From: Anaerolineae bacterium
GTDB taxonomy: Bacteria > Chloroflexota > Anaerolineae > Aggregatilineales > Phototrophicaceae
Direction: 5' to 3'
DNA length: 64,000 nucleotides
NCBI GenBank assembly: GCA_022841825.1
Contig: JALHQT010000002.1
Coordinates: 829,276 to 893,275, forward strand
Position numbers and translations under genes: made by a program
Shown: piece after piece, positions 6,287 through 29,123 of the stretch
How positions within the stretch are numbered: position 1 is the first letter of the stretch
Layout: every line of letters starts with the position of its first letter
The notes under the pieces: generated by a model
The model's input: only the letters and a program-made list of their open reading frames with translations
Databases searched by the model: none
Told to the model about the DNA's origin: nothing

Positions 6287-8409
6287 GCCGCTGCTCCTGC
6301 GCGCGTGTCGTTGCGTATGGGCGCGCGGGCGCGCTCTGTGGCGCGGTCATCCTTCCAGGCGGCGACGAACGTGCCGACGATCAGGATGAGTCCTCCCCAC
6401 CAGACGAGATTGATGAGCGGGTTGAGATAGATGTGCAGGGTGACGCTGCTGCCCGCCACTTCGTCGTAGCCGCTCAGGAGCACGTAGACATCGCCTTCAA
6501 GCGTGCTGTGCGCCCCTGGAATGGTGACCGCCATCTCCGGGTAATGATCGATGCGCGGGCGGATATGCTGAACTTCTGCGCTATCGCGGAAGATCGTCAG
6601 GTTGGCGATGTCCATCAGGCGACCATCGTCGGCGATCTGTCCGAGATCCAGGCTGTCGAAACGTACGTCGTACCGCCCGATCCGTGCGCTTTCGCCCGGC
6701 AGCAAGCGCTGGATGAGATCATCCTGATACGCCGTGCTGCCAATGACCCCCAAGCCGATGACGACGATGCCCAGGTGGACGAGGAAGCCGCCATAACGAC
6801 GGCGGTTGCGCCCGAAGATGTTGACGAGCGCCTGCGGCAGTGCTTCCCCTGTCGTCATGGTGCGGGCGCGCGCGCCGCGATAAATCTCATAGAGGGCGAC
6901 GAAGCCCGCCAGCAGGACAATGCCGTAGGCGAACATCGTTCCGGGGGTCTGGGCACCGAGCAGTACTGCGACGACCACGCCGAACGCCGTCAGCGCGAGC
7001 GGGACGATCAGCGACTTGCCGAGGCGTCGTGCCGACATGATGCCCCAGGCTGCCAGCGGCGCGACGCCCATCAGGATGTACATCGCGGCGAAGAGTGGGA
7101 CTGTCACCTGGTTGAAGTAGGCAGCGCCGAGCGTGATCTCGGTATCCATGAAGAGCGTGCTGATGACAGGCGCGCCGAAGCTGCCCCAGAAGATCGCCAG
7201 CGCCAGCGCGACGAAGACGACGTTGTTGAGGACAAACATCGCTTCACGACTGAGCCAACCGGTGAACTGGTGCTCATCACTCAGCTCGCCGCGCGAACGT
7301 CGCCACATGATCAGCCAGACGCCGATCAGCGTCATCACCAGCCAGAAGGCGAACATCGGGAAGCCGATTTGACTTTGGGCGAAGGAATGCACGCTTTCGA
7401 TCAGACCGCTGCGGGTGGCAAAGGTTCCAAACAGCACGGCGGAGAAGGTGAAGATGACGAGGAACATGTTCCACGTCTTGAGCATCCCACGCTTTTCCTG
7501 GATCATGACGCTGTGCAGATACGCCGTGCCGACCAGCCAGGGGATGAATGCCGCGTTCTCGACCGGGTCCCAGCCCCAGTAGCCGCCCCAGCCGAGCACG
7601 TCATATGCCCAGCGCCCGCCCAGGATCAGCCCCAGGCTGAGGAACAGCCAGGCGATCAACGTCCAGCGCCGGGTCGCCTTGATCCAGTTGGTGGTCAGGT
7701 CGCCGGATGCCAGCGCCGCCATCGCATAGGCGAAGGGGATCAGGAAGCCGACGAAACCGAGGTAGAGCATGGGCGGATGGATGATCATGCCGAAGTGTCG
7801 CAGTAGGGGGTTTAAGCCGTTGGCAGTCTGCGCCAAGCCGCCCTGCGCAAATAAGCCGCCTGTGCCCTCTGGGACATAGAGGGGCGGGATTTCGCTGTTG
7901 GGCGGGATGAGCAGGTGCGGGGCAAGCTGCGCGGTCGTCAGGTCTATCGGGGTGATCCAGAAGCGGGCGAATGGACTTTCGCCAAACAGCGACAAGCCTC
8001 CGAAGAACGCCATCGTCGCCATCTGGAAGATGATCACGTAGGGCATCAGGCGGTGGTTTTCGCGCCAGTTCAGCAGCAGCGACGCAAAGGCGAAGCCGCT
8101 CATCGTCACGTTCCAGAACAGCAGGGATCCTTGCTGCGACCCCCAGAGCGCTGTGATGCGGTAAAAGAGTGGGGTCGTCGGATCGGTGACCTGCCAGACG
8201 TATTCGACCTGATAATCCTGCTGCACGAGCAGCACGAGCAGTACCCCCGCCGCGCCGAGCAGGAGCGGGAAGGTGAGCAGCGCGGCATTGCGGGCGCTGA
8301 TGAGCAGACGTTCGCTGTGAGAGCGCGTGCTGAAGAAGGCGGCGGCGGTCGCGTAGATGGACGCGGCGAAGGCGAGTACCTGTAAGACGATGCCGAGTTC
8401 GGCAAACAT
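6283..8409 (-). CDS. ccmF: Cytochrome c haem lyase subunit CcmF
   Basis: A 708-residue polytopic membrane protein, close to the usual CcmF length. The tryptophan-rich haem-handling WWD motif is clear (WGGYWGWDPVENAAFIPWL, about residue 270), with conserved histidines around it (FGMIIHPPMLYLG, VHSFAQS). CcmF receives haem from CcmE and ligates it to apocytochrome c on the outer face. The gene lies between ccmE (6-nt gap) and ccmH (4-nt overlap). ccmABCD, which load CcmE, are not in this window and must lie elsewhere if the pathway is complete. Confidence 0.96.
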   Translation of the reverse strand: MFAELGIVLQVLAFAASIYATAAAFFSTRSHSERLLISARNAALLTFPLLLGAAGVLLVLLVQQDYQVEYVWQVTDPTTPLFYRITALWGSQQGSLLFWNVTMSGFAFASLLLNWRENHRLMPYVIIFQMATMAFFGGLSLFGESPFARFWITPIDLTTAQLAPHLLIPPNSEIPPLYVPEGTGGLFAQGGLAQTANGLNPLLRHFGMIIHPPMLYLGFVGFLIPFAYAMAALASGDLTTNWIKATRRWTLIAWLFLSLGLILGGRWAYDVLGWGGYWGWDPVENAAFIPWLVGTAYLHSVMIQEKRGMLKTWNMFLVIFTFSAVLFGTFATRSGLIESVHSFAQSQIGFPMFAFWLVMTLIGVWLIMWRRSRGELSDEHQFTGWLSREAMFVLNNVVFVALALAIFWGSFGAPVISTLFMDTEITLGAAYFNQVTVPLFAAMYILMGVAPLAAWGIMSARRLGKSLIVPLALTAFGVVVAVLLGAQTPGTMFAYGIVLLAGFVALYEIYRGARARTMTTGEALPQALVNIFGRNRRRYGGFLVHLGIVVIGLGVIGSTAYQDDLIQRLLPGESARIGRYDVRFDSLDLGQIADDGRLMDIANLTIFRDSAEVQHIRPRIDHYPEMAVTIPGAHSTLEGDVYVLLSGYDEVAGSSVTLHIYLNPLINLVWWGGLILIVGTFVAAWKDDRATERARAPIRNDTRAGAAA

Positions 8410-15027: not shown

Positions 15028-16887
15028 ATGAAGATTTCGTCACGCGCCTTCTGGCTGCCCTTCGCAGCCGCCCTCATTCTGCTTCTGCTCGCCGTGCTGC
15101 CGACACTGCAAACGATCCCCAACGGCAGCGAGCATTACTACATGATCGACGTGGGCGAGACGCAGATCGTGCTGAACGTTTGGGGAACGCTGCACGCGAC
15201 GGGCTACCCGCTTTACGTGATGTTGAGCAGCGCGCTCACGGGGCTGCTGCGCGCTGTGAGCATGGACGCGGCAGTCGCGCCCGCCGTCACCTCGCTGCTG
15301 TGGGGGACTGCGGCGCTGTTTCTGCTCTATGTGCTCGCCGTCCGCACAGTGGGATCACCGTTTCTCGCGGCGATCATGATCGTGCTGGTCGGGCTGACCC
15401 GCACAGTCTGGATTCACCTGGTGGTCGCGGAGATCTACAGCTTTGGGCTGCTGATCATGGCTGGGCTGCTCGCCCTGGCGCTGTGGGAGCCGCCGATCCG
15501 CCATCGCCTCTACTGGCTGGCGCTGCTGGGCGGGATCGGCGTGGCACATCACCGCGCCATCGCCATGATGATTCCGGCGCTCGTCTATGCCGTTTGGGGC
15601 GACCTGGGCGCGGAGATGCGGCGCAGGCGGATCGCGCTGGCGTTGGTCGCCTGCCTCGCGCTGGGTCTGCTCGGCTTCGCGCAGTACATCTATCTGCCGC
15701 TGCGTGAACAGGCGGGGGCAGCGTGGGTCTACGGTGAGCCGGGGACATGGACGGGTTTGTGGGATCAGTTCACAGGGCGCGAGGCGGAGCGCTTCATCGG
15801 CTCGCCAGAGACGCTCGACGGGCTGCTGACGAACATCGGGCTGATCACGAACGTGCTGGTCACCGACCTGACGATGCCGGGACTGATCGCGGGCGTCATC
15901 GGCTTGGCGTTGGGCGTGGACGTCCGGCTGCGCCGCAGAGTCGCGTGGGTGATGATCCTGAATGCGGGGATCGCGCTGCTTTTCCACTATCTTTTCTATA
16001 CCGACATTCTCTCGGCGCTGATCCTCCCAGTCATCGTCTCGGTGGGCTTCGGATGGCTGCTGCTGGCAGAACGTGTCTTCACATGGGCGGCGGGATCGCC
16101 AGGGCAGGTACAATCGATGTTTATCATCCGCTCGACGGTCTCACCGCTGCTGATGCTGGGACTGCTCGCCCTGCTTGGCGTACATCTCTACATGACCAAC
16201 GCGCCCTTCATCGCCTCGCTCACACAGGATACGACAGGCGTGCGGACCATCGCCCAGGTGCGCGAGACGCCGCAGGGAAGCGCGCTGATGGTCGCCTGGG
16301 GACCGCGCCATTTCGCGGCGGGTTTCGCGCGCGACGTGCGCGGCGGCATGGAAGGCGTGACGCTGGTCGATCACAAGGCGGATTTCCGCACGCTGGCGGG
16401 GCAGATGCCGCTTTACACGCCGGACTTCACCTTCTACCGCTATCCGGTGGCGTGGTGGGCGGAGCAGTTGGGGACGCCCGTCTATCTTCATGCGCAGGCG
16501 CACGGCTTGGTCGCGCTGGCGACGCAGCCGGAACGCGGCACGGGCGATCTTCTCGTGGCGCAGTCAGTCGCGCTCGAATGCGCGGCGGATGCGCTGACGC
16601 TGCGGGTCGCATGGTACACACCGGATGTTCCGCTGCGCGATCTGGGCGTTTTCGTGCATCTGCTGGATGCGACCGGCGCGATCATTGCGCAGGGCGACCA
16701 GGCAGCTCCTGTCTTCGGCTGGCGACCGCTGACAAGCTGGACAGCGGGCGAGATCGTGCGTGATGTTTATTCGCTGCCTCGCCTGCCGGATGGTGAAATG
16801 ATCCGTTTCGGCTTGTATGCACAGCGCGAAGATGGCACATTTGAGAACGTGGTCGAGGACATGGTGAGGGTCGAATGCGCGGAATGA
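15028..16887 (+). CDS. Polytopic membrane protein, DUF2723/glycosyltransferase-like
   Basis: A 619-residue protein with about ten or more membrane helices in the first 390 residues and a soluble C-terminal domain (about 410-619) of beta-sandwich character. The N-terminal HYYMIDVGETQIVLNVWGTLHATGYPLY and WIHLVVAEIYSFGLL with YIYLPLRE recall the DUF2723 family, which is related to GT-C protein O-mannosyltransferases. A lipid-linked sugar transferase role at the outer membrane face is possible. The start is uncertain: ATGs at 14986, 15016 and 15028 are in frame and no good ribosome site precedes any of them. The stop overlaps the next gene by 4 nt. Confidence 0.8.
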   Translation: MKISSRAFWLPFAAALILLLLAVLPTLQTIPNGSEHYYMIDVGETQIVLNVWGTLHATGYPLYVMLSSALTGLLRAVSMDAAVAPAVTSLLWGTAALFLLYVLAVRTVGSPFLAAIMIVLVGLTRTVWIHLVVAEIYSFGLLIMAGLLALALWEPPIRHRLYWLALLGGIGVAHHRAIAMMIPALVYAVWGDLGAEMRRRRIALALVACLALGLLGFAQYIYLPLREQAGAAWVYGEPGTWTGLWDQFTGREAERFIGSPETLDGLLTNIGLITNVLVTDLTMPGLIAGVIGLALGVDVRLRRRVAWVMILNAGIALLFHYLFYTDILSALILPVIVSVGFGWLLLAERVFTWAAGSPGQVQSMFIIRSTVSPLLMLGLLALLGVHLYMTNAPFIASLTQDTTGVRTIAQVRETPQGSALMVAWGPRHFAAGFARDVRGGMEGVTLVDHKADFRTLAGQMPLYTPDFTFYRYPVAWWAEQLGTPVYLHAQAHGLVALATQPERGTGDLLVAQSVALECAADALTLRVAWYTPDVPLRDLGVFVHLLDATGAIIAQGDQAAPVFGWRPLTSWTAGEIVRDVYSLPRLPDGEMIRFGLYAQREDGTFENVVEDMVRVECAE

Positions 16888-17768
16888 CATCCAAATTTGT
16901 GAGGCGTAATGTCTGCGGACGAGGCATGCCTCGTCCCTACATCAAGATAGATGCGACTGTAGGGACGAGGCGTGCCTTGTCCGTTCTCAAATTCCTCATC
17001 ATGATTGCCCTCCTCGCCGCCTGCGAAGCCGCGCCTGCCGCCACGACCGCCGATCCCTTCGCGGGTGTGCCGCAGGTCAAGCTGCTGGCAACGGTGCCGC
17101 CGCTGCCCACCGCCGACACGCGCATCCAGGAAGCGAACGCGGCTGCCGCGCTGCCGACCGTTATTCCCACGGCATTGCCGACGCCAACGCCGTACGTGGG
17201 CGTCTTCCTGGGCGGCGGCGCGGGCGAGAACTTGCCGATCTTCGACGCCGCGCGCTTTACTACGCCGACAGCGGTCATTGCCACACTCGAACCGCTGACG
17301 GTCTGCGAATTCACGCCGGACGAGCGCTACGGCACAGGCTGGGCAACCAGTCAGGTCGTGGTGGCGACGCTCGGCTGCCCCGGCGAGACGGCGGCGAGCT
17401 ACGACGGTGCGTTGCAGCTTTTTGAGCGCGGCGTGATGATCTACATCCCCAGCGGCGAGATCTGGGCGATTTCGCAGGGCGTGCCGACCGGGCGCTACTG
17501 GTATGTGGCGTCCGCGCCGCCGGAGCAGCCGATTGATCAGACGCCGCCGGATGGCTTGCGGCTGCCCGTCAGCGGCTTTGGCGCGACCTGGGCGGGCGTG
17601 GTAGGCGTACGACAGGCGCTCGGCTTCGCGCGCACGGAGGAGGCGGGCACGCCGATCCTGGTGCAGCGCTTTATAGGCGGGCTGCTGATCCAGGACTTAT
17701 CGACCGAGCAGACGTTTGCGCTGCTGGGCGTCACTGCTCCGACCGGCGTCGTGTATGGACCGTTCTAA
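16884..17768 (+). CDS. Lipoprotein of unknown function with repeat-invaded leader
   Basis: A 294-residue putative lipoprotein. The lipobox LLAAC places the lipidated residue at Cys47. The ATG at 16884 overlaps the stop of the membrane protein gene (ATGA). A composite palindromic repeat (16917-16982) of exactly 66 nt encodes residues 12-33, in frame, ahead of the hydrophobic h-region LKFLIMIALLA. An internal TTG at 16977 would give a short leader instead. The mature part has a Thr/Pro linker (PTALPTPTPYVG) and two similar segments, LGCPGETAASYDGALQLFERG and LGFARTEEAGTPILVQRFIGG, that look like a degenerate internal repeat. No family is recognised. Confidence 0.75.
   Translation: MTSKFVRRNVCGRGMPRPYIKIDATVGTRRALSVLKFLIMIALLAACEAAPAATTADPFAGVPQVKLLATVPPLPTADTRIQEANAAAALPTVIPTALPTPTPYVGVFLGGGAGENLPIFDAARFTTPTAVIATLEPLTVCEFTPDERYGTGWATSQVVVATLGCPGETAASYDGALQLFERGVMIYIPSGEIWAISQGVPTGRYWYVASAPPEQPIDQTPPDGLRLPVSGFGATWAGVVGVRQALGFARTEEAGTPILVQRFIGGLLIQDLSTEQTFALLGVTAPTGVVYGPF
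16917..16982. repeat. Composite palindromic repeat inside a coding leader
   Basis: Copy one (16917-16940, GGACGAGGCATGCCTCGTCC then CTAC) and an inverted copy two (16959-16982, GTAGGGACGAGGCGTGCC then TTGTCC) flank an 18-nt spacer. The unit is 66 nt, a multiple of three, and lies within the first codons of the lipoprotein gene. Confidence 0.85.
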
Positions 17769-17792: not shown

Positions 17793-18935
17793 ATGAAGAT
17801 TGTAAAGCTACAAGGCAAGATTGAGGGAGTGCGATATAAGGTATATCTTGCCCCGCAATTGAATAAGTACGAGCTCGATGATTTCGACATCAACAATTCT
17901 GCGACAAGTGGAATTGTAGTCGTTGGACAGTCAGAACTAGGGTATGCAGCTTGGGTCTCGCCAAAAAGGACGCGAAGTTACCCATTTGCACGCGTATATG
18001 ACATCTATGGTACATCCAAGCGCGTTGCGGTAATCCCCATCATTAAGGATGAAGGAAAGAATGGAGACTGTGATCGCATAAACTCGATCACCCTTTCCAT
18101 GATGAATTTGTTGAATGTCTACGTGATTCTTGCTTGGTACACAGATGCCGAGCCTAGCTCACGCTATCCAGGAAAAATCACTGAGCAACAATTCCCAATC
18201 AAATATGTTCGTGAACGGATAGGTGAGATTGCTGATTACCATCAAAGTGCATTGCATTGGAACATTATGCATTTTGAGCGCGACTTCGAGCGCGTGTATC
18301 GTTTGGCGATTAGCGAGTATCAAGCCATTAGTACTCGTACGAATATTGCAGTGCACTCCCCTCAATCGCACATGAATGCGTTGAAGAAGTTTATGCAGAA
18401 CGACACTTTCAATCGCGAACTCTTCCGAATGATGACCCTCAAGGAGTCACTAAGAGCAGCAAAACGTGAAGTGTCCATTCTCTCTCACTTGAAAGAGCAT
18501 CTGACTGATGGAGACAAAGCAATTATTTCACTCGAGAATTATTTGGGCGGTGAATATCACTTGACCATCGATGAAGTATTTGAAGAAGATGGCAAAATCG
18601 TTTTGCAGGAATGCAAGAATACTGGTGAGGGAAAGTTTCCAAAGGTTGCCGACATAAAGGATGGGTTGCTAAAGCTTATTCTTTACAGCAATATCGATAC
18701 TCTGTCGCGAGAAGATGGTGGCGAAATCGACTTTCGAGTTCAACTTAAGCTCACTGGCAAACTGAAAGGGAGGTTGGTCATTCCGTCGAACAAGCACGTT
18801 ATCGATAAGTTCTGCGGAGACAACAAGCTTTCTACAGGAGAGACCAGTATCATCGCAGCGCTCCAGCAAGAAGTAGCCTACAATCAAACGCAGTATCAAA
18901 GACCAATAACTGTCCTCATTACAGGCAACACATGA
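17793..18935 (+). CDS. Putative type II restriction endonuclease
   Basis: A 380-residue protein with no recognised full-length homologue. Its context is decisive: the stop overlaps the start of a DNA adenine methylase by 4 nt. In the C-terminal third, Asp260 (YHLTIDEVF) and Glu273-Cys-Lys275 (KIVLQECKN), followed by Asp290, fit a PD-(D/E)XK nuclease core. Residues 1-240 are of unknown fold and may bind DNA or recognise the target. The gene is visibly AT-richer than its neighbours, with A/T-ending codons common, consistent with horizontal transfer. No strong ribosome site precedes the ATG. Function as cognate nuclease is inferred. Confidence 0.7.
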   Translation: MKIVKLQGKIEGVRYKVYLAPQLNKYELDDFDINNSATSGIVVVGQSELGYAAWVSPKRTRSYPFARVYDIYGTSKRVAVIPIIKDEGKNGDCDRINSITLSMMNLLNVYVILAWYTDAEPSSRYPGKITEQQFPIKYVRERIGEIADYHQSALHWNIMHFERDFERVYRLAISEYQAISTRTNIAVHSPQSHMNALKKFMQNDTFNRELFRMMTLKESLRAAKREVSILSHLKEHLTDGDKAIISLENYLGGEYHLTIDEVFEEDGKIVLQECKNTGEGKFPKVADIKDGLLKLILYSNIDTLSREDGGEIDFRVQLKLTGKLKGRLVIPSNKHVIDKFCGDNKLSTGETSIIAALQQEVAYNQTQYQRPITVLITGNT

Positions 18936-19744
18936 GTACCCTGGCAATCACACCGCTGCGCTATCCCGGCGGCAAATCGAAAGCGCTCGATCAAATTCTG
19001 CCGCTCCTGCCCAGGGAGATCGGCGAGTTTCGAGAACCATTTCTCGGCGGGGGGTCGGTACTGCTGGCGGTGAAAAAGCTCTATAGCAAACGCATCAATC
19101 ACTACTGGGCAAACGACCTGAACAGCGATCTTTTCCACTTCTGGCAGGCGCTGCGGGATACGCCAGACGAACTCGTCAGTCAGGTGCAAAGTTTTCGTGA
19201 TGGATATGAAAATGGGCGCGAACTTTATGCATTCCTGCGCGACGAAGCCAACATGCGCTCGAACTTTGATCGCGCCGTTCGCTTCTTCATCATGAACCGC
19301 ATCACCTTCTCCGGCGTTATGGACTCCGGCGGCTATTCCGATCAGGCGTTTCATCTTCGCTTCACACAGTCATCTATCGACCGCCTGCATCGCACGGCGC
19401 ATTACCTTCCCAACGTCGAGATCACACATGGGGATTACGAGGTGGTCTTACGGCGTCCTGGCGATAACGTATTCCTTTTCCTCGATCCGCCCTATTGGAA
19501 GGCGACCAAGTCGAAGCTCTACGGCGTGAAGGGCGATTTGCATACCTCGTTCGATCATGAGCGCTTCGCAGCAGCAATGCAAACATGCAAGCATCGTTGG
19601 CTGATCACCTATGACGACTCAGAAAAGATTCGGAGCTTGTTCAGCTTCGCGCGAATCATCGAATGGGAATTGCAATATGGGATGAACAACTATAAACGTG
19701 ACACGGCAGAAAAGGGCAAAGAGTTGTTCATCGCCAATTATTGA
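18932..19744 (+). CDS. D12-class DNA adenine N6-methyltransferase
   Basis: A 270-residue Dam/D12-class methylase. The N-terminal TPLRYPGGKSKAL, AdoMet motif I EPFLGGGSVLL (Phe37-Gly41) and catalytic motif IV DPPY (Asp185-Tyr188, in FLFLDPPYWKATK) are all present in the order of the alpha group, with the target-recognition region between them. It should transfer methyl groups to adenine N6 in a short palindromic site that cannot be read from sequence; GATC is only one option. Its start overlaps the stop of the putative restriction nuclease (ATGA), so it presumably protects the host DNA. Base composition is intermediate between the nuclease gene and the surrounding genome. Confidence 0.93.
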   Translation: MSTLAITPLRYPGGKSKALDQILPLLPREIGEFREPFLGGGSVLLAVKKLYSKRINHYWANDLNSDLFHFWQALRDTPDELVSQVQSFRDGYENGRELYAFLRDEANMRSNFDRAVRFFIMNRITFSGVMDSGGYSDQAFHLRFTQSSIDRLHRTAHYLPNVEITHGDYEVVLRRPGDNVFLFLDPPYWKATKSKLYGVKGDLHTSFDHERFAAAMQTCKHRWLITYDDSEKIRSLFSFARIIEWELQYGMNNYKRDTAEKGKELFIANY

Positions 19745-19756
19745 CGGAGCGAGCGA

Positions 19757-20656
19757 ATGCCAGAAACTCCCCACCTCTTCGACGAACCCACGCGGCGCAA
19801 GCTGGAAGCGCTCATGTTCCATGCTTCGCGCGTGCGCGCCGGGGCGATTAAGGGCGACCGCCGCTCGAACAAGCGCGGCACCAGCATCGAGTTCGCCGAC
19901 TATCGTAATTACGCGCCCGGCGACGATCTGCGCCGTCTTGACTGGAACATCTATGCCCGTTCCGACCGCCCGCTGACGCGCCTGTACGAAGACGAGGAAG
20001 ACCTCGCCGTCCATCTGCTGCTGGATACCTCCGCCAGCATGGACTGGCAGCCCGACGAGGGCGGCGTTGGCGCGCCGGACAAGTTCCTCTTCGCACGGCG
20101 CATCTTCGCCGGGCTGGGCTTCGTCGCGCTGGCGGAGAACGACCGCCTGACAATGAGCACGCTCGACGGCGCGCTGTATGGTCCCGTGCGTGGGCGCGGC
20201 TATGGCATTGGGCTGCTGCGCTACGTGGGGGGACTGGCGGCGCGCGGCACGACCGACCTGAACGCCGCGCTCAAGGCGTATGCGCTGCGGACGACGCGCG
20301 CCGGGCTGGCGGTCATCATCAGCGACTTCTTCTCGCCAGCGGGCTACATGGACGGCTTGAACGCGCTGCTCGCCAAGGGCTGCGAAGTCGCCGTCGTGCA
20401 TCTGCTCGCGCCCGCCGAGGCGGAGCCACCGCTGGTGGGCGATCTGCGGCTGATCGATATGGAGACAGGCGAACCGCAGGAGGTGAGCCTGGACGACGGA
20501 ATGCGGGCGCTGTATGTGGAGCGCGTGCGCGAGTGGCGCGATGGCATCCGCACGGAATGCAGCAAGCGCGGCGTCCACTACGTCTATGCGCAGACCGACG
20601 CGCCCTGGGAGCGCGTCATCTTGCAGGATCTAAGACGAACGGGAGTTGTCCGATGA
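19757..20656 (+). CDS. DUF58 family protein (VWA-like)
   Basis: A 299-residue protein with the DUF58 signature: RRSNKRGTSIEFADYRNYAPGDDLRRLDWNIYARSDRPLTRLYEDEEDL, followed by a von Willebrand A-like core with metal-site motif DTSAS (VHLLLDTSASMDW). Such proteins normally accompany MoxR AAA ATPases and act in chaperone-like assembly of metal enzymes or membrane complexes. Here the preceding gene is the methylase, 12 nt upstream, and no MoxR gene is adjacent, so the restriction cassette may have been inserted into a former operon. The stop abuts the convergent proline dehydrogenase stop. Confidence 0.88.
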   Translation: MPETPHLFDEPTRRKLEALMFHASRVRAGAIKGDRRSNKRGTSIEFADYRNYAPGDDLRRLDWNIYARSDRPLTRLYEDEEDLAVHLLLDTSASMDWQPDEGGVGAPDKFLFARRIFAGLGFVALAENDRLTMSTLDGALYGPVRGRGYGIGLLRYVGGLAARGTTDLNAALKAYALRTTRAGLAVIISDFFSPAGYMDGLNALLAKGCEVAVVHLLAPAEAEPPLVGDLRLIDMETGEPQEVSLDDGMRALYVERVREWRDGIRTECSKRGVHYVYAQTDAPWERVILQDLRRTGVVR

Positions 20657-27863: not shown

Positions 27864-29123
27864 CTACTTCTTCTTGTATCCGACCTTGGCGTTGTTGGGG
27901 ACATTCTTGTCCGGGAAGGCGTTGAATTCCTCCAGACGCAGATCGGTGCCGAGGATGACGCCCTTGCCGACGCGGAAGCCGGGCGGGACATGCGTAGCCT
28001 TCCCAACGCTGGTGATGCTCAGATCGCCCACCTGGCTGATGTCGCCAACATGCGCGCCATTGCCGATGATGGCGAGCTTGTCAATGATGCAGCGCTCGAC
28101 GACGGCGTTCGCCTCGATGTAGGCGTCGGTCAGGATGATCGACTCGCGGACGACGGCGTTGGGTCCGACGAAGACGCCCGGCGACAAGACCGAACGCTCG
28201 ATCAATGCCCCTTCGGAGATGACGGTACCATCGGCGAGCATACTGTTACGCACGGTCGCGCCGGTATGCACATGCACCGGCGGGCGCTCCTCGCTGCGGG
28301 TGTGGATGATCCAACTGCGGTCGTTCAGATTCAGCGAAGGCGGCGACTTGAGCAGATCCATGTGCGCTTCCCAGTAGGCATCGACCGTCCCCACGTCGAT
28401 CCAGTAGCCGCCGTAAGGGAAGGCGAAGACCGCCATGTTTTCGCGCACCATGCGCGGGATGATGTCTTTTCCGAAGTCATGGTTGCTATCGAGCATGACA
28501 TGATCTTCCTGGAGCAGGCGTTCGAGGCTCGCATAGTTGAAGACATAGACGCCCATGCTGGCGAGGTTGCTGGGTGGGTTGGCGGGCTTTTCGACGAAAT
28601 CGCGCACGGCGTAGTCGTCATCACAATCCAGGATGCCGTAGCGGCTCGCCTCGTCCATCGGCACGCGGATGGTGCAGATGGTCGCTTCCGCCTTCTTTTC
28701 GCGGTGGAACTGGATCAGGACATCGTAGTCCATCTCATAGATATGATCGCCGGACAGGATGAGGACATATTCCGGGCGTCCGCGCCGGACGAAGTTGATG
28801 TTCTGCGTCACCGCGTCGGCTGTGCCCAGGTACCAGTCGGTGTCCGACTTGCCTTTGTACGGCTGGAGCATCTGCACGCCGCCTGTGAACGAGCGGTCGA
28901 GGTCCCAGGGGCCGCCGCGCCCGATGTGGTCATTCAGGCTGTGCGGGCGGTACTGTGTCAGGATCAGCACGTCGAAGATGCCGGAATTGACGCAGTTGCT
29001 GAGCGTGAAATCGATGATGCGGTACTTGCCCGCAAAGGGGACGGCAGGTTTCGCGCGTTTTGAGGTCAGTGTTGCCAGGCGTGTGCCTTCGCCGCCCGCG
29101 AGAATGATTGCTTTGACTTTCAC
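27864..29123 (-). CDS. glgC: Glucose-1-phosphate adenylyltransferase
   Basis: A 419-residue ADP-glucose pyrophosphorylase, the committed step of glycogen synthesis (glucose-1-phosphate plus ATP to ADP-glucose). The N-terminal nucleotide loop [29 protein letters not shown], the glucose-phosphate region ([19 protein letters not shown]) and the [13 protein letters not shown] metal site are present; the C-terminal half is the left-handed beta-helix expected for the allosteric domain. It lies upstream of malQ and downstream of glgA on the same strand, with a DUF6194 gene inserted in opposite orientation before glgA. Confidence 0.97.

Follow-up and report, generated by a model that had tools for sequence, protein, structure and literature searches.

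A 64,000-nt stretch of the genome of an Anaerolineae bacterium (GenBank assembly GCA_022841825.1, contig JALHQT010000002.1, positions 829,276 to 893,275; hereafter the window) carries two overlapping genes, for a nuclease (R) and a methylase (M). We consider, at a probability of roughly 0.88, that the two constitute an orthodox type II restriction-modification (R-M) pair specific for GGCC. The gene pair, the families of its products and the conserved catalytic residues of R are present in the window, R and M co-occur, and GGCC has been lost from this genome and from other R-bearing genomes and loci. The pair is laid out as follows:

17793-18935, + strand: R, type II restriction endonuclease of 380 amino acids (aa), PADLOC PDLC03572 family, predicted GGCC cutter
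18932-19744, + strand: M, alpha-class amino-methyltransferase, 270 aa, 59% identity to M.CbeI, predicted to form N4-methylcytosine (m4C) in GGCC
18932-18935, + strand: ATGA, the 4-nt overlap of the R stop with the M start

The original prediction, made from the window's letters, had described a 380-residue protein whose gene overlaps that of the methylase by 4 nt, and both statements hold. From the genes and from genome statistics we infer the GGCC site, the m4C product and the cutting. R and M would be co-transcribed, M would methylate N4 of a cytosine in host GGCC, and R, from the overlapping upstream gene, would cut unmethylated GGCC via its C-terminal PD-(D/E)XK domain. Lapses of methylation would make each GGCC costly to the host; selection would then remove the site first by synonymous codons and, where there are none (Trp-Pro), by protein change.

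GGCC is nearly absent from the genome

In 664 kb of the genome we counted 73 GGCC against 4181 expected (ratio 0.017). The window itself holds 3, at 28910, 32973 and 41392, against 393 expected. Over 264 kb, 33 were found against 1628, the lowest ratio among the 256 tetranucleotides, and our own script of the Karlin-type measure gave 0.036 for GGCC over the same length. The 73 leftover sites show only slight clumping, their counts per 20 kb having a mean of 2.2 and a variance of 3.4.

The loss is not a product of codon usage: after synonymous codons were shuffled among 192 open reading frames (ORFs), 1624 +/- 27 GGCC were expected against 31 observed. The avoidance is visible at single codons. 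Glycine is encoded by GGC at 10 of 2851 positions before C and at 8093 of 12345 (65.6%) before other bases; the corresponding counts in G012, an undepleted genome of the same genus, are 1469/3048 (48.2%) and 5313/7713. Likewise, GCC encodes alanine at 19 of 5944 positions after G and at 39.9% after other bases, and G012 uses it at 41.5% after G. (Handles beginning with G denote genomes, and those beginning with L denote loci.)

Loss of GGCC accompanies R across relatives

We compared 61 genomes including this one, of which 56 could be scored; the samples of G018, G031, G040, G048 and G051 were only N. All eight scorable R-bearing genomes, this one included, had GGCC ratios of 0.000-0.181 (G028 has R in two frames). 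Among the 48 genomes that lack R, 41 stood at 0.299 or above and seven at 0.058 or below. Depletion (0.18 or less) was thus found in 8/8 genomes with R and 7/48 without (Fisher 4.5e-6, uncorrected for kinship). The pattern recurs within the genus: G000, G001, G007 and G009 carry R and lie at 0.00-0.13, while genomes lacking R lie either at 0.47-1.05 (G002, G008, G010-G014) or at 0.04-0.06 (G003-G006). In the flanks of R at 12 loci in other bacteria, with the cassette excluded, GGCC occurred 13 times against 120.5 expected (0.11). It was the lowest of the 16 tetranucleotide palindromes there; the next stood at 0.48.

Several observations pull the other way. Our sample of this genome is 11% of 5.9 Mb, all of it from contig C2, and those of the relatives span 3-60 kb, apart from 439 kb for G012. 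GGCC is not the only scarce palindrome in this genome, many others being rare too. Two R-bearing genomes, G009 (0.131) and G058 (0.181), are less depleted than the rest. GGCC is also scarce in seven of the 48 genomes that lack R: G003, G004, G005, G006, G015, G017 and G042. Two of these seven retain traces of the pair, G017 keeping M without R and G042 holding M fragments, as expected after recent loss of a system. Avoidance is described as a persisting trace of lost R-M systems in passages of Rusinov et al. 2015 (PMC4687349). In G042 (contig C2, L052 1561-1845; GGCC ratio 0.045) an M.CbeI-like methylase survives as a C-terminal fragment, perhaps left behind by a system since lost. The other five (G003, G004, G005, G006 and G015) have neither R nor a close M, and weak Dam-like matches at most. 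The HaeIII-family model found nothing in these five, its sole match being one fragment in G034. The NgoPII-family model found nothing there either, and it matched no control, so that absence from the five is not established by it.

These five genomes favor a reading in which the pair does target GGCC while the purge predates it: one or more earlier isospecific R-M systems in the lineage would have cleared the sites, and the cassette would be a later arrival that settled easily. On the same side, R proteins from within the genus (43-47% identical to R of the window) are no closer than those from elsewhere in the order, in other genera and families (43-47%). The cassette has moved, since none of the four proteins flanking it in the window lies within about 1.5 kb of R-M at 13 loci in 12 R-bearing genomes, and it is AT-richer than its flanks. 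However, recent arrivals should sometimes be found in normal genomes, and every scorable R-bearing genome is depleted. M, moreover, declines with kinship, from 63-65% in the genus through 57-63% in R-bearing genomes of the family to 55-58% in the order. Low guanine-plus-cytosine (GC) content relative to flanks is common among cassettes elsewhere (exceptions include L015 and L016) and therefore does not date the one in the window. We regard an older purge as possible but unlikely.

Methylated bases can be mutable, and GGCC could have been lost by mutation at the methylated cytosine rather than by selection against cutting. M is present in all R-bearing genomes of the relatives sample, and GGT makes up slightly more of the non-GGC Gly codons before C in this genome (0.289) than in G012 (0.243). 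Of the non-GCC Ala codons after G, however, GCT, the C-to-T product, makes up 0.077 here versus 0.156 in G012, and the loss is spread across all replacement codons, with GGG and GCG taking most. Two relatives with an intact M and no R show no depletion: G016 has 113 GGCC for 106 expected (1.06) and G025 has 301 for 340 (0.885), the activity and GGCC specificity of M in both being presumed. Mainly because of these two genomes, with their predicted-active M, we read the loss of GGCC as selection against cleavage and not mutability; a mutational origin appears quite improbable.

M resembles an N4-cytosine methylase

The original prediction called M a clear D12-class adenine methylase. The D12 assignment was sustained (Pfam MethyltransfD12, E 1.2e-46), and M scored 112.2 bits against the Dam-family NCBIfam model, just under the cut-off of 114.85. 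Two motifs were placed:

19034-19054, + strand: M motif EPFLGGG, S-adenosylmethionine binding (FLGGG at residue 37), which we take to be motif I
19484-19495, + strand: M motif DPPY, residues 185-188, as in M.CbeI

Their order, FLGGG (37) before DPPY (185), is that of M.CbeI-type alpha-class m4C methylases. The closest solved relative of M is 7m6b (E 1.3e-101; 154/260 residues identical, 59%), identified in part of PMC8616854 as M.CbeI of Caldicellulosiruptor bescii. Passages of PMC3425538 describe M.CbeI, with its DPPY motif, as annotated as an adenine methylase and shown to place m4C in GGCC. The adenine half of the earlier description is therefore doubtful, because M.CbeI, the nearest homologue of known structure, forms m4C despite carrying the same annotation. 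By homology, the product of M is probably m4C in GGCC and not methyladenine.

Were M nevertheless an N6-adenine methylase, the site of R would contain A and the rarity of GGCC would be coincidental. The MethyltransfD12 match, the DPPY motif and the near-threshold Dam-family score would all accommodate this. However, M.CbeI combines the same annotation and DPPY with modification of C in GGCC (PMC3425538, in the passages cited above), and no other word is as depleted as GGCC, either among the 256 tetranucleotides in this genome or among 16 palindromes at the R loci of other bacteria. We hold the adenine reading to be highly improbable. Another candidate site, GTWWAC (that of M.BceJIV, a related methylase), was dropped once 7m6b proved to be M.CbeI; its raw count in the window is 11.

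R belongs to a catalogued nuclease family

R matched the PADLOC model REase_II PDLC03572 over residues 4-316 (E 3.5e-63), as did 20 of the 20 homologues that we aligned. The alignment leaves out the broken R genes of L011-L014, L018, L026 and L027, and that of G028. General libraries are without the family: no Pfam model matched R at E 1, NCBIfam gave only a sub-threshold match, and a sequence search of the PDB, with R alone or with a 20-row profile, returned nothing at E 10. By its sequence match, R is thus in a family catalogued as type II restriction endonucleases. The N-terminal 240 residues had been thought to match no family, and the cassette to be the best candidate for an undescribed system; the PADLOC model covers most of that region and, since it is a type II endonuclease model, the system is not undescribed in kind. 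The regions of R discussed below are:

18570-18617, + strand: catalytic motif D260 (18570-18572), E273 (18609-18611) and K275 (18615-18617), invariant in 20/20 homologues
18474-18932, + strand: R C-terminal domain, residues 228-380, probably PD-(D/E)XK-like (AlphaFold2 model, VIA-align)
17793-18482, + strand: R N-terminal domain, residues 1-230, no Pfam match and no NCBIfam match above cut-off

Asp260, Glu273 and Lys275, proposed earlier as the nuclease core, are present in R, and their invariance across the homologues is in line with the proposal. An AlphaFold2 model built from the window protein and nine homologues reached a mean predicted local distance difference test (pLDDT) score of 83.4 and a predicted template modeling (pTM) score of 0.84. 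In the model, D260 lies on strand 254-265 and E273/K275 on strand 268-276, followed by helix 285-299 and strand 301-306. When residues ~228-380 were compared with solved chains by VIA-align, the top ranks were largely nucleases or nuclease-like proteins: XisH (Z 5.7 over 98 residues, 2.9 A), AF1548 (5.5), SduA (5.0), an McrBC chain (5.0), PaqCI (4.7) and BamHI (4.4); unrelated receptor complexes began at about 4.2. The VIA-align Z values obtained here, the best being 5.7, are below the level that is trustworthy by itself, and Foldseek with the R model gave no match at E <= 0.001. Structure prediction, which had been proposed as a check, therefore agreed in strand order and fell short in fold matching. 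The modeled strand order and the conserved catalytic residues agree, and the C-terminal domain is probably PD-(D/E)XK.

Modeled alone, the N-terminal domain gave five models with pLDDT from 43 to 82 (best 81.6). Its best solved-structure match was the ERCC1 central domain, at a Z of 5.0, again below the trustworthy level; FANCM and BsmI followed closely, and proteases, a hydratase and GTPases scored almost equally. ERCC1 and FANCM are presumably nuclease-like, and a KDEG motif at R residues 85-88 is invariant in 20/20 homologues. We take this as a hint that KDEG might mark a second nuclease-like domain.

R and M travel together, with exchanges of partner

We found R at 27 other loci (13 in named genomes, eight in the relatives, five more in a phylum sample and one on a viral contig). 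At 25 of them the same M family, or a remnant of it, adjoins R or an R remnant; some of the R genes are broken (L011-L014, L018, L026 and G028). At L025, the gene overlapping R encodes a methylase of another family (PF01555, E 2.3e-45), with SPPY in its translation; passages of PMC3425538 give SPP(Y/F) as a hallmark of N4-cytosine methylases. At the remaining locus, L002, the contig ends behind R. A methylase or its remnant thus adjoins R at 26 of the 27 loci, which substantiates the coupling of nuclease and methylase proposed originally; R was not found widely without such a partner. Separate, adjacent and co-occurring R and M genes, together with a conserved catalytic motif in R, are orthodox type II features.

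The converse arrangement occurs on plasmid5 of Aulosira laxa NIES-50 (L028 2139-3831), where a methylase of the M family (55% identical to M of the window) lies behind a HaeIII-family gene (PF09556, E 6.6e-22) annotated merely as a hypothetical protein. With the threshold relaxed to E 5, PF09556 still matched none of the 20 R homologues. Since R is found with a PF01555 methylase, and M with a HaeIII-family nuclease, partner families have been exchanged, around what looks, from the sequences, like one site.

To look for a plasmid or phage origin, 72,556 plasmid records and 50,697 phage records were searched by tblastn (E 1e-5); none held R. The viral contig (L205) encodes a relative of R with M beside it, and spread of the cassette by mobile elements is possible. 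Separately, 411 phage records carry an M homologue (e.g., MN013189.1 17938-18729), nearly all cyanophages going by their names; identity reaches 57% in Microcystis phage Mic1, and R occurs in no phage record. These homologues are possible anti-restriction methylases against GGCC systems.

Avoidance of GGCC probably reaches the proteome

Tryptophan is encoded by TGG only and every proline codon begins with CC; therefore, Trp-Pro always contains GGCC. ORFs of at least 150 codons were called mechanically, and some are therefore spurious. In this genome (191,056 residues) Trp-Pro occurred 27 times against 142.6 expected (0.19), with Pro-Trp at 0.74 and Tyr-Pro at 1.02 as controls. The ratio was 0.82 in G012 (69 against 84.4) and 0.85 in 36 pooled undepleted genomes (109 against 127.7), the pool being the 41 undepleted genomes minus G012, used alone, and G030, G034, G036 and G053. 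Seven R-bearing relatives had 7 against 26.9, and the seven GGCC-poor genomes lacking R had 14 against 50.7. Among all 400 dipeptides, Trp-Pro was the most depleted relative to controls (log2 -2.13). The pairs next likeliest to hold GGCC followed at -0.60 (Gly-Pro), -0.46 (Gly-Gln) and -0.46 (Gly-His), and over all pairs the likelihood of GGCC showed a weak trend with depletion (Spearman -0.19, p 1e-4).

Not all of the peptide data point this way. Four pairs unlinked to GGCC fall below Gly-Pro (Cys-Tyr -0.94, Cys-Asn -0.81, Cys-Ile -0.77 and Asn-Gln -0.64), which leaves Trp-Pro as the single pair that is distinct on its own, and neither Trp-Ala (+0.02) nor Val-Ala (+0.07) fits the trend. In a small sample of orthologous positions, Trp-Pro was kept at 3/12, Pro-Trp at 8/17 and Tyr-Pro at 9/40. 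We nonetheless think it likely that a type II system has reshaped the host proteome, cutting Trp-Pro about 5-fold and lowering Gly-Pro, Gly-Gln and Gly-His to a lesser degree, and that the footprint outlasts the system in relatives.

No description of avoidance at the level of amino-acid pairs appeared among the matches listed in the open-access literature, subscription literature being mostly beyond the search. The passages of PMC2841640, PMC7560954, PMC10993293 and PMC2745766 that came up do not describe avoidance at that level. The last of these reports, for an acid biofilm community, that palindromic tetranucleotides including GGCC fall below codon-based prediction, and in that passage names restriction avoidance as a constraint.

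Other scarce words

Six-base palindromes are also depleted in the window plus 600 kb of G000 contig C2: GAGCTC (5 observed/119 expected), GGCGCC (29/645), CAGCTG (17/301), CTCGAG (17/236) and GTCGAC (39/414). With GGCC-containing words left out, 14 of 48 such palindromes lie below 0.3 in this genome versus 3 of 48 in G012. The GRGCYC words (GGGCCC left out) and the CYCGRG words are low as sets here, which suggests further past or present type II systems; in G012, too, the CYCGRG words and GAGCTC are scarce. In G019, G028 and G029 (L078, L087 and L088), GATC is nearly as scarce as GGCC (0.05, 0.15 and 0.00), which suggests that a second site has been purged there.

Surroundings of the cassette

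The cassette lies between two GC-rich genes:

16875-17768: upstream gene of 297 aa, putative lipoprotein in the original prediction, no Pfam match
19757-20656: downstream gene, Pfam DUF58, E 1.5e-34

The GC fraction is 0.441 in R and 0.528 in M, compared with 0.663 in the upstream gene, 0.670 in the DUF58 gene and 0.616 in the window, as expected from the earlier description of an R-M cassette of lower GC than its flanks. The -4 nt overlap of R and M recurs in 8 of 23 other rows measured. It had also been stated that DUF58 normally follows moxR. A moxR-like frame, recognized by eye without a model, lies upstream of DUF58 at 6 of 12 relative loci examined (directly before it in three, across a gap of 0.5-0.7 kb in three), so the statement applies to half of them. 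Here the cassette precedes DUF58, and the moxR-like protein of one relative found no match in the window. A clean empty site was not found, DUF58 being the sole match in the surroundings of the relatives' DUF58 genes.

Relation to known systems and implications

Restriction-site avoidance and CbeI-type GGCC/m4C systems are already known. Of these, CbeI/M.CbeI of C. bescii (GGCC, m4C) is similar through M, at 59% identity over 260 residues, and through the adjacency of its two genes. In the part of PMC3679861 concerned, the C. bescii endonuclease gene adjoins the methylase gene, as here; the genes are 45 bases apart there and overlap by 4 nt in the window. DmtB of Anabaena is a further GGCC m4C methylase, 57% identical to M.CbeI (not to M of the window) according to passages of PMC3425538. 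The HaeIII family (PF09556) probably shares the GGCC specificity, and its Aulosira member directly precedes an M-family gene, but R and its homologues do not match it. Passages of Rusinov et al. (PMC4687349) report under-representation of orthodox type II sites, as found here, with a cut-off Karlin ratio of 0.78; the value here is 0.036, with an effect that extends to amino-acid pairs. This genome departs from the known cases in its nuclease family, which lacks a HaeIII-family match, in how far the purge has gone and in its extension to the proteome.

Two nuclease families that are unrelated by sequence search stand beside one methylase type, and annotations as "D12 adenine methylase" can conceal cytosine methylases. 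The cost of carrying an R-M system becomes countable here, in sites, in codon choices and in amino-acid pairs, across relatives that have R and M, M alone or neither. If the loss of Trp-Pro holds genome-wide, R-M systems would exert selection on protein sequences, and the restriction history of a genome could be read from its peptide statistics even after the enzymes are lost.
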